Under the pieces are notes generated by a model, which was not told where the DNA came from, did not search any database, and saw only the letters and a program-made list of their open reading frames with translations. Of a stretch of 64,000 nt of DNA, positions 1 through 20,166 are shown piece by piece (the first letter of the stretch is position 1; every line of letters begins with the position of its first letter). The stretch comes from Aurantiochytrium sp. KH105 (taxonomy: Eukaryota > Sar > Bigyra > Thraustochytrida > Thraustochytriidae): the NCBI GenBank assembly GCA_003116975.1, contig BGKB01000067.1, positions 280,630 through 344,629 on the forward strand, given 5' to 3'. The translations under genes and the position numbers were made by a program.

Positions 1-1028
1 CTAGGGTTTGGAATAGATGTGGCCTAGGAGTTTGCATGGGTACAGTGAGGTGTGGTGGACCCCGTGGGGCTCCGCGGCGGGCGAGTTTACGCGTCGCGAC
101 GAGTTTACGCGTCGTGACGAGCGGGGCAGGCGGGGAATGGGAGGGAAAAGGAATAGAGATAAAGGGTGTGAGGGACCTTGCTCGCGATTCGATTCACGCA
201 TCGGACGCCGCATAGGCGAGCGCTACGGATGAGCAAGGCCGGCGGAGAGCCGCTGCTAGAGGCTGAGAGTGAGGCGGAGGAATGACCGGTTCGGGGCGGA
301 AAGAAACGTACCTGCCTTTTGAGCGGAGGAAAACGAGATACGCCGTAGCTTGTCCGTCATGCGAGAGGCTAGAGGCGAGCCTGAGCGATGTGACGATAAT
401 ATGCTGGACTCGTCATTGGAAAAGGGTGATGACAGTTTGTCTTTTTGGGGGACGCATGAAGCCTAACCCTTTCCTTATGCTCGACACAACCCAAGGCAGC
501 GCAATGGTTTTTGTTGTCCTTGGCACGCGTCGCCCAGGGGCGCAAGACTGACTTTCTACGTCGAATAGAAGGTGGGTATACGGGACTTTCCGTTTTACGC
601 TCAAGGTCCCCAATCGATAACCTTTGACTTGCGACAAGTTGAACGATGCAGAAACCTCGCGCCATGGAGATCATCCATGTCACGGAAGGTTGGAAAGAGG
701 AGGCAAGACACGATCATCGTGAGAGAATTACTTTCAGAGAAACGAAAAACGCTGTCCGCCCATTTTCTCAAAACGAATCAATCTTCCTCATCGGCCTCCA
801 TCTGAACGAATTCGAGAGAGAGGGAGATCGAGATCACAGAAGCATCATGCATATGCTTTTACTCCTTTCAGATGACAAATTTGGTCAGGGCTTTCCAAAG
901 TAAAGGCAAGCGCGCATTGCCAACGTCAAGGATGAGAACAATTTGAGACGGGCAACAGAAAGGAGAAAAGAAAGAAACAAAAAGTAGCGAAAAAGGGGGA
1001 GAGAAGGAGAACATGTAAGTAGTGATGA
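1..1028. other. Spacer, no recognisable gene
   Basis: Only short overlapping ORFs are present on both strands (the longest about 104 codons), with no family resemblance. Positions 83-121 hold an 18-bp unit repeated twice in tandem (GAGTTTACGCGTCG core). The first bases resemble a single telomere-type unit but there is no array. It may be the 3' flank of the Rab gene plus the end of an unseen neighbour. Confidence 0.5.
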
Positions 1029-1937
1029 TCAACAGCACGAGTCTTTTTGAGGTTTGCCGGCGTTCCCGTTGCCGATAACTACGGATTTACCATAGTCCTC
1101 CTCATCGTCCATGGTTTTAAAGTGGTTGTGCACGTTGACAACGAGCTCTTCAAAGGCGCGCGTGACATTCTGGCCTGTTTTCGCCGAGGTGCGCATTGAC
1201 AAGAGACCGTGCTCCTCGCAGGCGCTCGTGTGCACGGCCTCCGAAATGTACTTGCCGACCTCGAGCTCAGTCTCGAGGTCGATCTTATTGCCCACGAGCA
1301 TGATGCACGACAGGAAGCCGCGATCCTTATCTGCTGCCTCTTTCAAATCATTCAACCACGTGTCCAGCGCATTTTGAAATGATTTCTTGTTCGCGACGTC
1401 GTACACGAGAATTGCACCTGCTGCTCTACGGTAGTGTGACGTGGTGATGGCGCGGTAACGTTCTTGTCCGGCTGTGTATTATTAAAGTGCAAATCGTTGT
1501 GGAAATACAAAATGCCAGTCAGTTAGTCAGTCAGGACATCAGTGCAGAAGACACTTCCAAATCCTACGTACCTGTATCCCAGATTTGCGTGCGGATTCGC
1601 GTGCCATCCGGATGAACGATGGTCTTGGTCCCAAACTCGACGCCAATGGTCGGCTTACGGGTCTCGTGGAAGGTGGGAACGGCCTTGCCCGGCTCGGCCG
1701 TGGCGTTCTCAGCGTTGCGCGTGAAGCACGCCAAGAGGTTTGTTTTGCCTACCCCCGCGTCTCCTACGAGAACGACTGTGTATTTCGTAAAGGACAAAGA
1801 AAGCAAGAGTCGTGGCGCGTGCACCGAGATCATTCGTCAATATGTCGCCGCTTGATCAAGTCATGTATAAGGCGAGCGGCGCCTTTTCTTGTGGAGGGTG
1901 ATCACTTACTCTTGTACAGAACATCGAACTCGTCCAT
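1029..1937 (-). CDS. Rab11-like small GTPase, three exons
   Basis: Membrane-traffic GTPase. Spliced model: 1910-1937, 1572-1775, 1471-1029, giving 224 residues. The first exon encodes only MDEFDVLYK plus one base. Donors are GTAAGT and GTACGT, acceptors ACACAG. Seen in the product: P-loop [11 protein letters not shown], switch I region ending [11 protein letters not shown], switch [19 protein letters not shown] and TSAK guanine-binding motifs, and a C-terminal CC expected to be geranylgeranylated. The YRAIT..YRRAAGA stretch is most like Rab11, which acts in recycling-endosome and post-Golgi transport. An extra segment of roughly 15 residues lies between FTRN and PTIGVEF, where Rab11 is short. 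The splice joins restore the conserved core exactly, so the exon structure is well supported. The Rab11 subfamily call is inference; a lineage-specific Rab is possible. Confidence 0.9.
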
Positions 1938-15703: not shown

Positions 15704-17305
15704 TTGGCAATCAGCATCTTGAGACTCGAAGCTGTCCTCTACTTGGCCATCCTGCGAAGATACACGGAGGAAGTGCGAAAGGCCAAAGAGGAGAAACGTG
15801 CACACCCAAAAGCTCACTGCGGCGTAGTGGAGGAAGTTGGACATGGTGAAGATGCCAAACATCTTATCACCAGCAACATCCTCGATCACCTCGAGCACGA
15901 GACGGACAGCGCCCACACTGACGCCAGCCTTGAGCGTGATCTCACCCGCACGACGCGTAGGAATACGCGACACCATGCCCCAAATGTAGACACAGAGCAG
16001 CGGCGGGCCGAGGTACGCCTGCGGCTTGTTAATGATGGTAAAAAGGCTGCTGCCCAAGTACGGCATGACGGGAAGCCAGGCGAGCGCAAGAAGGGCAAGC
16101 ACGATGATGGTGATGCGCCCGACGAGCACGAGGCGCTCCTCCGTCGCTTCCGGGTACCATTGGCGCCAGACAGTGAGTGCAAAGAGAGTTCCCGAAGAGT
16201 TGAAGACGCTGGCAAGTGCAGACATGAGCGCCGAGAGCATGCTGGCGATAATGAGTCCGCGCATGTTTTTGGGCACAACATTGAGCACGAGCCACGGGTA
16301 CGAGGAGTCGTAGTTGAATTTCTCGAGCTCAGCGGGTGTGAGGCGCTCCTCGACGAGAACGCGCGCGCAGAGACCGGGCACGACCATGATGAAAAAAGGA
16401 ATAAACTTGAGCGTGGCCGCAAAGAGGCAACCGACCTGGCCGTGCGCGACGTTCTTCGCCGCCAGCGTGCGCTGGACAATGACCTGATCGACGCCAAAGT
16501 ACCAAGGCGCAAAGGTGTAAAAGCCAAAGATGAAGCCGGTCCAGGGCATCGTGGGGTCCGAGCTCGGACGAAAAAGATGCATAAAGCGCGGGTCCACGTC
16601 GTCGAGGGCATTGACAGAGTCGACAAGGCCGGACCAGCCCCCGACCGCGCCAAGCGAGTACGCGAGCATAATGAAGCCGCCTGCCACGAGCACGATCGTT
16701 TGCAGAACCTCGGTGTAGATGACGGCCTCGAGGCCGCCGACGACCGTGTAGAGCGTGGTGAAGGCGATGAGAAGCACGACGGCGACTGTCTTGTTGACGT
16801 CGAGGAGCTCGACGAGGATCAGCTGACCGGCAAAGAGGGTGGCGCTGATGCGCGAAAGCACATAGACAGCGAGGGAGACGGCGACCATGATGGTCTTGCA
16901 CTTGAGGTTGTAGCGGCGCTCGAGATAGTCGGGTGTGGTCTCGATGGCCGCGCTCAGGTACGTGGGCAGAAAGAACATGCCCAGCGCGAGGACGCAGATG
17001 ACGGCGCCGATCTCGTAAAAGGCCGTGGCCACGCCCGAAGAGGCCGCGCCTCCCGCGAGTCCGACAAAGTGCTCGCTGCCGATGTTGCTCGCAAAGAGCG
17101 AGAAGCCGACGGCCGTAAAGCGCACGCTGCGGTCCGCGAGAAAGTAGCCCGCGGACGTCTGCTTCCCGCTCCGAAAGCTGACCCACGCAAAGATGATAAT
17201 GACCACCACGTAGTACAGAATCAGGGTGACCCAGTCGCCGACGCCCATGGCGTTGGCGATGCTGGCCTTGCCCAGCGCGTCCTCATTCGCCACGGCGTCC
17301 GCCAT
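15350..17305 (-). CDS. Sodium/solute symporter, SLC5 (SGLT-like) family
   Basis: Plasma-membrane cotransporter of the SSF family, 651 residues from the first ATG (MADAVANED). About 13-14 hydrophobic helices. Family hallmarks: the first-helix region GDWVTLILYYVVV, AGYFLADRSV, ASNIGSEHFVGLAGGAA (SGLT-type substrate/sodium region), GGLEAVIYTEVLQ and GVDQVIVQRTLAAKN. The last two are typical of sugar and inositol transporters in the family, but the substrate cannot be fixed. A large hydrophilic loop near residues 540-610 holds a ten-residue glutamine run (CTG repeat at 15672-15702 on the plus strand) and an acidic stretch, before a final helix (VIQGLAVLIFACWVTQ). The loop length is unusual and it is probably disordered. 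Confidence 0.92.
15672..15702. repeat. CTG/CAG trinucleotide run encoding polyQ
   Basis: Ten in-frame glutamines (CAG on the minus strand) in the hydrophilic loop of the SLC5-like transporter. Confidence 0.95.
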
Positions 17306-18701
17306 CTTCCCCAAAGTCTCCTCTTTCTCCTGCTCCTGCTCCTGCCGCTGCTGCGCTCGCCGCTACGAAGGCCTCCTCCTCGAGCTCCTGCTGCTCCTCC
17401 AGGTAGCCGACAAGGGCTTCCCGCTGCCGCGTCTCGGCCTCGTCGTCACGCGATCTCCGCCTCGTGCGCGCGGGCGCGGGGCTCGCCGTGCGCGCGGGCG
17501 GGCGCGGGCGGGCGGGCGAACGGGACCGGGTCCGTGCGGGCGCGAGCGCGGGCGTGCGTGCGGGCGAGCGAGCGCGAGCGGCGACCGCGCGGCGTCCGTT
17601 CGGGTTCTGGGTCGAGCGAGCGAGGCGCGCTGCTCGTAACAAAGTGAGGCGCGCTTTGCATGCGTCCATGCATGCCTGCGTGCACGCGGGTCCAGGATCG
17701 CGCTCCCGCGCCGCCTGCGCGGGCGGGGCGGGCGCGCGCAGGCCGGCAGCGCGGGCGGCCTCGCGCCGCGGGGCCGACGAGGCCGCGCGGCGGCGCAGCG
17801 AGCGGGGCGGGGAGACGAGGCGGGCGCCGCGGGGACCAGGCGGGGGCTAGGGATTGCGGTAGCCGGGCGGTAGGCGGAGGGCCGCAAGTGGAGAATGGCG
17901 GCGCGCAAGTGGGGAATGCAGGGCGCGCGACTTGCGGGCGGGTATAAGTGTGTTTGGGAGTGGGTGTGTTTGGCGGGTTGTTGTGCAGGTATAGTGGGCG
18001 AGAGGCAGGAGGACAAAGAGAGCGAGGAGGAGGAGAAAGAGCAGCGCGAGGATACGCTCGAGGATACGGCCGCCGGCGCGGAGGCCCTGCAGCAGCAGGC
18101 AGCTGCAGAGCGCGGCGCGGGAGGGCGCAGAGGCCCTGCACAAAAGCCCCGCCGCAGAGCACGGGCAGAGGCGCGGCGCGGGGCGCTGGGCGGGGAATGG
18201 CGATGGCGATGATGATGACGATGGCGATGGAGATGTCGAAGACGACGATAAGACGCCACGCACGACGACGACAACGACGACACCAAGGACGGCGACGCCA
18301 GCGACGACGAGGACGAGGACGAGGGCGAGGACGAGGAGGACGAGAAGTGCAGGCAGGAGCTGGGAAAGCGCCGGGCGCGGAGGTGCGAGGAGCAGAAGCG
18401 CGGGCCCTCCCTCCGGAGTCCTCGCGCGTGGCTCAGCAGCGCGTCGACGCGGGAGACCTCGCGGCGGCGTGGTCGCGAGTAACGCGGCGGCACGTGCAGG
18501 CGCGCGGAGGCGAGACGCGCGGGATAGAGACGGCGCGGCGAAGACGGCCCTCGCTCGTGTCGCGACTGAGACTCGCGAGGGAGGTCTCGGGCCGGGCTAA
18601 ATGCCGGCGAGCAGCTGAGCGAGGAGGAGGAGGAGGAGGAGGAGGAGAAGAGTCCTCGATGCATCTCGTGCGTTCAGGAGACGAGACCAGACCTCGCGTG
18701 C

Positions 18702-18742
<41 letters not shown>

Positions 18743-19056
18743 CGCGCACGGAGCGCGGGAGAGGCGGAGATGGCCGCGGACGCGCTTCGCGCCAAAGCGC
18801 GTGAGCGAGAATCCGCTCGAGGGACGGCGTGGCGTCGAACGGACGAACCCCAGACCTGGCCTGCAGGAGCAGCAAGAAAGACTGCGAGGAGAAGGGAGCA
18901 AAAGCAGCAAGACTGCAAGACTGCAAGCAAAACCCGAACGCCGCGGAGGAGGAGAAGAAGAAGAGCTCTCTCGGGACGCAGAGCGGAGCAGCGCAGAGCA
19001 GAGCAGCGGCCGAGGACGAGTAGACGGACGGCCAGCCTGTCTAGAGAGCGAGCCCG
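17306..19056. other. GC-rich divergent spacer, symporter / H3 variant
   Basis: 1.75 kb with extreme GC content. A GGA run at 18621-18648 and a GAGACC hexamer array at 18703-18741 lie upstream of the H3-like gene. The ORFs here (up to about 430 codons, both strands) are Arg/Pro/Ser/Ala low complexity and overlap each other, so none is called. Confidence 0.5.
18703..18741. repeat. GAGACC hexanucleotide array
   Basis: About six copies of GAGACC about 320 bp upstream of the histone H3-like start codon. Confidence 0.9.
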
Positions 19057-19512
19057 ATGGCGCGCAAGAAGCAGACAGTGTACAAGGCGGTGGGGGCCAA
19101 GGCGCCACGCATGAGGCCCGTCATGGTCTCTGAGCAGCACCAGCAGCAGAGGTGGCAGCAAGACAAAGGCGTGCTTGCGGGCGGGGCGAGAGGGGGCGCC
19201 CAGCGCGATCTCGTGCTTCCGCGAAACGTGGAGGGAAAGCGAGCGCGGAGACTTGCGACGGAAGAAGACCTGGACCTTATCATTCGCAGAGGACCTTTTC
19301 GACGTCTGGTCAAGGGACTCGTCCGCGAAAAGACGGACCTCCGAATATCGGGCGCTGCGCTCGCAAGTTTGCAAGAGGCCGCCGAGACCTACCTCGTTGG
19401 CGTCTTTCGCGACGCCGGCGTGAGCGCCTCAGCGTCACACCGCGTCTTTGTACGCTCCAAAGACCTCGCGCTCGCACGCAGAATTCGAGGTCTCGCGCCT
19501 TCTTGTGTATAA
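19057..19512 (+). CDS. Divergent histone H3 variant
   Basis: A 151-residue intronless gene for an H3-fold protein. The tail aligns residue for residue with canonical H3: MARKKQTVYKAVGAKAPR keeps R2, K4, Q5, T6, K9, G12, K14, P16 and R17, but changes T3 to K, R8 to Y, S10 to A and T11 to V. The core keeps PFRRLVK, KTDLR, LQEAAETYLVG and a C-terminal LARRIRG. The region before the alpha-1 helix is longer and unlike H3 (HQQQRWQQDKG, RNVEGKRARR). Loop 1 is not lengthened (one residue shorter between FRRLV and KTDLR), and the usual Thr after the alpha-2 helix is Ala. Canonical H3 has 135 residues. It is therefore a deviant H3: a lineage-specific variant, perhaps centromeric, but without the usual CenH3 loop insertion. 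A tail this conserved implies it still receives some H3 marks. Confidence 0.85.
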   Translation: MARKKQTVYKAVGAKAPRMRPVMVSEQHQQQRWQQDKGVLAGGARGGAQRDLVLPRNVEGKRARRLATEEDLDLIIRRGPFRRLVKGLVREKTDLRISGAALASLQEAAETYLVGVFRDAGVSASASHRVFVRSKDLALARRIRGLAPSCV

Positions 19513-20166
19513 TGAATAAATAATGAATGTATGAATGGATGGAAAGATGGATGTCATCATTTGATTGACGGTGCGTTCACTTACTTCATCAGCTGCTATG
19601 GCGCTTACTTTGGCTCGCTTGCTTGCTGGCTGGCTGGCTGGCTGGCGGACCCGCTGGCCCGCTGGCCCGCTGGCTGATCGGGTCAGTGCCCTTGCTTGCT
19701 TGTTTGCTTGCTTGCTCGCTCGCTCGCCTTCAAAAAAAAATTATAAAACCTAGACCTTGCCGGTGGAGATGTGAAGCCATGCCCCCACTGGCCTTTCGTG
19801 CGCTGATTCGTTTGCGAGACAGCAACCGCTGACTACTCGTACAAAGAAAAGAAACAAAGGTTGGTGCAGTGGCAGCTAGCCTGGGGATGATGGCCTGCCA
19901 AAACAAACCACACCATCATCACCCATTATCTTACTGAGAACAATCGAAAAAGGGTGTGTACTCTGTGCCTCTTTCTTTCATTCGTGAGGGCGCGGAGCGT
20001 GGCGCTTTCGGCTTTGGAGAAGAGAAGAACCTCGCGCGCTTGGCTGCCGCCAATCGTGGCGTCAACGCGTCGAGGGGGCGAAAAGGACATCGACGTGGCA
20101 GCGGCGTCACGGAACCAAAAGGTAGTGGTCTGGTTCTCCTTTTGGCTGTCAGTGCGGCGGAGGCCG
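19513..20166. other. Spacer upstream of a coiled-coil gene
   Basis: Contains GCTGGCTGGC and CCGCTGGC repeats (about 19620-19676) and GCTT/GCTC runs (about 19695-19728). The downstream reading frame is open from about 19954 but has no ATG supporting a longer protein. Confidence 0.45.

Follow-up and report, generated by a model that had tools for sequence, protein, structure and literature searches.

The gene at 19057..19512 of the window (the window being the whole stretch of 64,000 nucleotides that was analysed) encodes a divergent histone H3 that keeps an H3-like tail start and carries substitutions at the nucleosome dyad and at the H3-H3' interface. We tentatively favour the interpretation of this gene as an H3 variant that is functional, non-centromeric and probably expressed at a low level; the best reading of the protein appears to be a low-abundance replacement H3 that would form unstable or heterotypic nucleosomes.

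Gene structure and homology

The gene and its parts, in H3 numbering without the initial Met, are as follows.

19057..19512, + strand: divergent histone H3 variant gene, intronless, ATG to TAA, 151 aa plus stop
19060..19110, + strand: H3-like tail start, A1-R17, from alignment to the canonical H3 of the same genome
19111..19290, + strand: diverged and lengthened remaining tail and pre-alpha-1 segment, from the alignment; no aligned K18, K27, K36 or K56
19291..19491, + strand: histone fold from the end of alpha-1 to alpha-3 (H3 65-132), one residue shorter at alpha-1/loop 1
19408..19461, + strand: H3 positions 105-122 (end of alpha-2, loop 2, start of alpha-3), 13 of 18 changed
19441..19443, + strand: codon of H3 R116, Arg here and His on the other haplotype (C145)
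19492..19509, + strand: C-terminal LAPSCV replacing ER[AS], from the alignment

The match of the encoded protein to the Pfam Histone family (5e-17) lies above the curated cut-off, and 176 distinct PDB sequences were matched at E <= 0.001. The best 60 of these 176 are all named as H3, and the best match among those listed is a canonical H3 (7e-20, residues 1-145). The variant is longer than the canonical H3 of the same genome (151 vs 136 aa) and 42-44% identical to it. The H3 homology is far beyond chance, and the protein is a member of the H3 family, its fold matching H3 and not the other core histones. A chance open reading frame or a pseudogene was ruled out by this homology together with the comparison of the alleles. 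A single-sequence AlphaFold2 model of the variant (mean pLDDT 54) is not usable as evidence; among the 35 matches (E up to 10) of a PDB fold search with this low-confidence model, there was no histone and no match with an E of 0.001 or lower.

Upstream of the gene, the + strand shows a strong purine excess between 16001 and 20000 of the window (GC skew 0.133, AT skew 0.192), where both skews exceed those of the other 4-kb blocks, and GA-rich repeats are located around 18600-18740.

Histone complement of the genome

The surveyed assembly comprises 76 Mb in 367 contigs. Its matches to PfaA-type PUFA synthase (best 930 bits, none of 24 reaching the 1010-bit cut-off, and weaker ones occurring in 11 of 14 control genomes as well) may point to a thraustochytrid. 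A Pfam histone search of the genome identified 32 places; many histone genes have a near-identical copy on a second contig, the pattern of a two-haplotype assembly, and some are single, e.g. the H2A/H2B pair on C26. Searching with the variant, at E up to 10, yielded 14 places, namely 3 with E above 0.4 and 11 of the H3 type:

Divergent H3 variant: two places
Canonical H3: six places
CenH3-like gene (L016/L017): two places, C88:17264-17575 and C59:16107-16415, - strand, 223 aa, with a long tail
Partial H3: one place (C182)

The canonical H3 genes represent three loci (C210/C206, C53/C180 and C5/C21), two of which encode identical proteins and two of which are neighbours of H4 genes; the contigs of the variant carry none of the 7 H4-type matches in the genome. 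The variant itself occupies a single locus, present on both haplotypes in copies with 97% protein identity. Several identical copies elsewhere, which the original prediction had named as evidence against itself, were not found, and a multi-copy canonical H3 was ruled out by the single locus with its two alleles. Near-invariance, strong codon bias, several identical copies and pairing with H4, the hallmarks of canonical H3, are all lacking in the variant.

The original prediction had also recommended a search for a second, more CenH3-like gene, and such a gene exists at C88/C59. The loop 1 of its product is longer by 2 residues, H3.1-CENP-A chimaeras rank first and second among its PDB matches, and CENP-A or Cse4 names account for 5 of its best 60 PDB matches, compared with 0 of the best 60 for the variant. 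The C88/C59 gene would, by these features, be the better centromeric candidate.

Several other histone-like frames were encountered in the survey. L018 (C182, 1251-1577, + strand) is an incomplete H3 that lacks the canonical tail; on C96, the other haplotype of C182, an 86% flank match ends where the H3 match starts, which suggests that one haplotype carries an insertion with this H3. L052 (1312-1818, - strand; C3:374351-374581) is a divergent H4-like frame with a C-terminal extension (58% identity to human H4 at residues 26-102) that was found once, the remaining six H4 matches forming three pairs; its product is a possible partner for the variant H3. L019 (C28:406636-406932, + strand) is a divergent H2B-like frame, located on one contig only, whose C-terminus is unusual.

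Histone core, dyad and H3-H3' interface

The PFRRLV, KTDLR and LARRIRG motifs reported by the original prediction are all present in the core, and alignment confirmed both the extended segment before alpha-1, with two additional residues adjoining alpha-1 besides the longer tail, and the absence of a lengthened loop 1, the alpha-1/loop-1 join even having one residue less than canonical H3. Between K79 and G132, the alignment of the variant with H3 is free of gaps. The Thr that had been placed behind alpha-2 is T107, close to where alpha-2 ends, and is indeed Ala in the variant; Ala at 107 is also found in the CenH3-like gene of this genome and, taken alone, is weak evidence for a centromeric role.

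Compared with the H3b of the same genome, 31 of the 67 aligned core positions of the variant differ. The proportion of changed positions is higher between 105 and 122 than elsewhere in the core (13 of 18 vs. 18 of 49, Fisher p = 0.013, for a segment picked after inspection); a free scan for clustering of substitutions in the core was not significant (p = 0.155, and p = 0.056 for the other allele). In the CenH3 of this genome, 6 of the 18 positions at 105-122 are changed, and the densest changed stretch starts at residue 70 (scan p = 0.010).

The changes between 105 and 122 include E105R, L109V, C110S, H113A, K115H and T118F. These dyad and interface substitutions, together with the R116H difference between haplotypes, had been missed by the original prediction. 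D123, L126, A127, I130 and R131 are kept, and 4 of the 6 interface residues counted after position 114 are constant across both alleles, the counts being based on what we take to be the interface and DNA-contact residues. H113, R116 and T118 are retained by the CenH3 of this genome. Among the positions of Sin mutations, E105R and T118F are altered in both alleles of the variant and R116H in one, where E105R and T118F are substitutions other than those tested as Sin mutants.

H113 forms a bond to D123 on the other side of the H3-H3' interface, and yeast does not survive H113A, for which a destabilisation of 8.1 kcal/mol was calculated (PMC3017104). The same paper describes R116H as a Sin mutant in which a salt bridge to residue 123 is lost. 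T118I counts as a SIN mutation, and DNA contacts are weakened when T118 is phosphorylated (PMC4798946); E105K/Q is listed as Sin- (PMC11050016); T118 and K115 mutants of Drosophila are embryonic lethal (PMC4772521). H3 pairs designed with changes at L126/L130 and at L109/A110/L130 form obligate heterodimers (PMC6125124).

Allelic variation, constraint and codon usage

The two alleles of the variant differ at 10 sites, of which 4 are amino-acid changing and 6 are silent (dN = 0.012, dS = 0.053, dN/dS of ~0.22); the values for the CenH3-like pair are close (0.016/0.080). There is no gap or stop in the coding sequence of either allele, and no decay is seen between the two haplotypes; the original prediction had named decay in close relatives, in combination with absence of expression, as evidence against itself. 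In the flanks (17300-18949 and 19550-20149), gaps are present in 14 of the 15 bins of 150 bp, and at least 6% mismatches in 12 of the 15 (range 2.0-16.7%). With random substitution, 4 or fewer changing differences were obtained in 2.3-5.3% of the trials, depending on the transition bias; thus, purifying selection on the variant, as judged from two alleles, is supported, albeit not strongly.

These data bear on the possibility that the gene is a paralogue under relaxed constraint, i.e. a duplicated H3 that has mostly lost its nucleosomal role and is drifting, with the dyad changes and R116H as products of decay. Such drift would agree with a very long branch in the tree (~1.6), with 4 amino-acid differences between alleles as opposed to zero protein differences in the canonical H3 allele pairs, and with the allelic difference at the normally invariant R116, which could simply reflect weak constraint. 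However, both alleles are free of indels and stops next to largely gapped flanks, so few changing differences are rare among the random trials, dN/dS is similar to the value for the CenH3-like gene, and LARRIRG and D123/L126/I130 are kept; we consider relaxed constraint unlikely, although it deserves some weight.

The codon adaptation index (CAI) of the variant is 0.20, with 0.15 and 0.11 for its two other frames, compared with 0.19-0.36 for six ordinary genes of the window, 0.23 for the CenH3 and 0.76-0.81 for canonical H3. Alleles and codon usage taken together suggest a constrained gene of modest expression.

N-terminal tail

Set against the ARTKQTARKSTGGKAPR-type tail start of H3, the variant is identical to the canonical H3 of this genome in 11 of 17 residues, without gaps. 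A1, R2, K4, Q5, T6, K9, G12, K14, A15, P16 and R17 are kept, and the changes are T3K, A7V, R8Y, S10A, T11V and G13A. Alignment confirmed the tail as it had been described, i.e. 17 ungapped residues with K4, K9 and K14 kept and T3, R8, S10 and T11 replaced by K, Y, A and V, and added A7V and G13A to the list of changes. The loss of the K9/S10 switch on the variant protein, also proposed originally, follows from S10A. Beyond residue 17, the tail aligns poorly, with M at K18, and the alignment of the variant with canonical H3 contains no equivalent of K27, K36 or K56; K79, within KTDLR, is retained.

Because A7V and R8Y spoil the ARKS context around K9, ordinary HP1-type reading of this residue is doubtful. 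S10A, T11V and T3K would remove mitotic phosphorylation sites, and the tail could offer a K4/K9/K14 module in an altered context, on which phosphorylation of T3, S10 and T11 and the K27 and K36 marks would be unavailable. The emphasis of the original prediction on the tail was misplaced nevertheless: the changes at the dyad and the H3-H3' interface probably matter more.

Loss of marks and phosphorylation sites could also be a feature of a stage-specific packaging H3 (e.g. in zoospores, cysts or meiosis), where it would act in compaction or resetting, and where the dyad changes would ease later exchange. The codon bias of the variant is modest, as such a gene might show, and stage-expressed H3 variants of a ciliate differ in their mark motifs (PMC2939574), but the net charge of the variant is not above that of canonical H3 (16.7 vs. 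19.7), and we regard a packaging role as unlikely.

Phylogenetic placement and origin

The main tree included 9 sequences, 4 of them entered by hand, and 91 columns. In the best tree, the variant lies on a branch of ~1.6 outside the CenH3 group, which consists of the CenH3 of this genome, CENP-A and Cse4 (77% support); alternative placements of the variant with the CenH3s (p-AU = 0.10), with the CenH3 of this genome (p-AU = 0.08) or with its H3 (p-AU = 0.09) were not rejected. In a tree of 11 sequences, the variant falls beside the C182 fragment, without support, and the CenH3 of this genome again joins CENP-A. Phylogeny cannot place divergent H3s as H3-like or CenH3-like, according to PMC2939574. 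The original conclusion that the protein fits neither canonical H3 nor standard CenH3 agrees with the presence of canonical H3 and CenH3 genes elsewhere in the genome and with the best tree; its exclusion from the CenH3s is less firm given the p-AU value for a position inside that group.

A centromeric H3 was considered first and was demoted, since another gene of this genome is CenH3-like and has a longer loop 1; the centromeric reading is unlikely for this reason, and the CenH3 hallmark of a longer loop 1 or CATD-like alpha-1 to alpha-2 segment is absent from the variant. A second, specialised CenH3 or kinetochore H3 appears improbable as well: the loop 1 of the variant is shorter and its tail start H3-like, the longer loop 1 and CENP-A-like matches belong to the C88/C59 gene, and that gene keeps H113, R116 and T118, of which the variant has lost H113 and T118 in both alleles and R116 in one. 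The points in its favour are Ala at 107 and EAAE, as in the CenH3 of this genome, the tree groupings with CenH3s that were not rejected, and the hydrophobic C-terminal LAPSCV, given that yeast CenH3 ends in QFI, a part of the CENP-C surface (PMC6125124).

Searches of non-eukaryote collections confirmed no relatives of the variant among 37 and 34 candidate stretches of viral contigs, and none among 133 stretches of prokaryote genome contigs, an absence that says little for eukaryotes. Acquisition of the histone gene from a virus could explain the strong divergence, and H3-bearing viral contigs do exist, e.g. L045. However, neither the variant nor a variant-led alignment retrieved a viral relative, H113 and R116 are intact in the sole viral H3 found, which does not cluster with the variant, and the gene is present in both haplotypes with matching flanks; a viral origin, which found no support in the viral-contig searches or the tree, is thus highly improbable. 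L045 carries, at 1-192 (- strand) and 290-1507 (+ strand), an H2B-H2A-H3 fusion frame and, adjoining it in divergent orientation, an H4-like frame.

Predicted properties of nucleosomes containing the variant

In the favoured reading, that of a functional, non-centromeric H3, the variant would pair with H4 and enter nucleosomes outside the bulk histone supply. Two variant H3s would hold together poorly because H113, the partner of D123', is replaced by Ala, C110 by Ser and L109 by Val (H113A, C110S and L109V), and a weak grip on the dyad DNA would be expected, given that K115 is replaced by His and T118 by Phe (K115H and T118F), as well as R116 by His in one allele (R116H); the charge of E105 is reversed. 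A weak hold on the partner H3 combined with a weak dyad grip would result in loose or asymmetric nucleosomes. The variant could accordingly resemble a built-in Sin-type histone that marks sites of easily moved or evicted nucleosomes. Alternatively, it might persist mainly opposite canonical H3 in heterotypic nucleosomes, where a mixed pair would retain one of the two H113-D123 contacts, making the heterotypic particles more stable.

With D123, L126, A127, I130 and R131 intact, the self-interface may nonetheless be functional. That it was broken by evolution (through H113A, C110S and L109V, with R116H segregating) seems rather unlikely; the variant would then exist only opposite canonical H3 or in a half-particle, producing an asymmetric Sin-type nucleosome with a K4/K9/K14 tail devoid of phospho-switches.

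At H113, K115, R116 and T118, single substitutions are lethal to yeast or flies or lessen the dependence on chromatin remodellers (PMC3017104, PMC4798946 and PMC4772521). A natural, apparently constrained H3 with several such changes, encoded beside a normal H3 and a CenH3, would test the evolution of loose or asymmetric nucleosomes, and would separate K4/K9/K14 marking from the neighbouring phospho-switches.

Comparison with known systems

In the literature searched, there was no report of H3 or histone variants for thraustochytrids or Aurantiochytrium, and the passages of PMC5579357 on this subject do not mention labyrinthulids. Additional H3s in which mark sites are altered or absent are described in many eukaryotes, including ciliates and dinoflagellates (PMC2939574 and PMC4751559), and the variant appears, from its sequence, to be a divergent H3 of this already-known sort with an unusual dyad. 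The ciliate and dinoflagellate variants resemble it in their altered marks, in often keeping K4 and in occurring beside more normal H3s; this comparison is by description only and, in the passages of the same two sources, concerns mark sites, not the loss of H113, T118 or E105.

With canonical and replacement H3 (H3.1, H3.3 type), the variant shares the histone fold, much of the tail start, K4/K9/K14, KTDLR and LARRIRG, and canonical H3s are its best PDB matches (among 60 of 176), whereas its tail is longer, its loop 1 has one residue less, and T3, S10, T11 and the dyad residues are changed. Common to the variant and CenH3 (CENP-A, Cse4) are Ala at 107 and divergence, and its extended C-terminus after RIRG presumably resembles that of human CENP-A; unlike CenH3, it has no longer loop 1, keeps the H3-like tail start and has lost dyad and interface residues.

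The laboratory Sin mutants share with the variant the positions E105, R116 and T118 (PMC3017104, PMC4798946 and PMC11050016), and the designed asymmetric pairs H3X/H3Y share the H3-H3' interface positions L109 and 110 (PMC6125124). Sin mutants and H3X/H3Y are laboratory alleles, whereas the variant carries E105R and T118F and keeps L126 and I130, its effect on the nucleosome being predicted from these positions.
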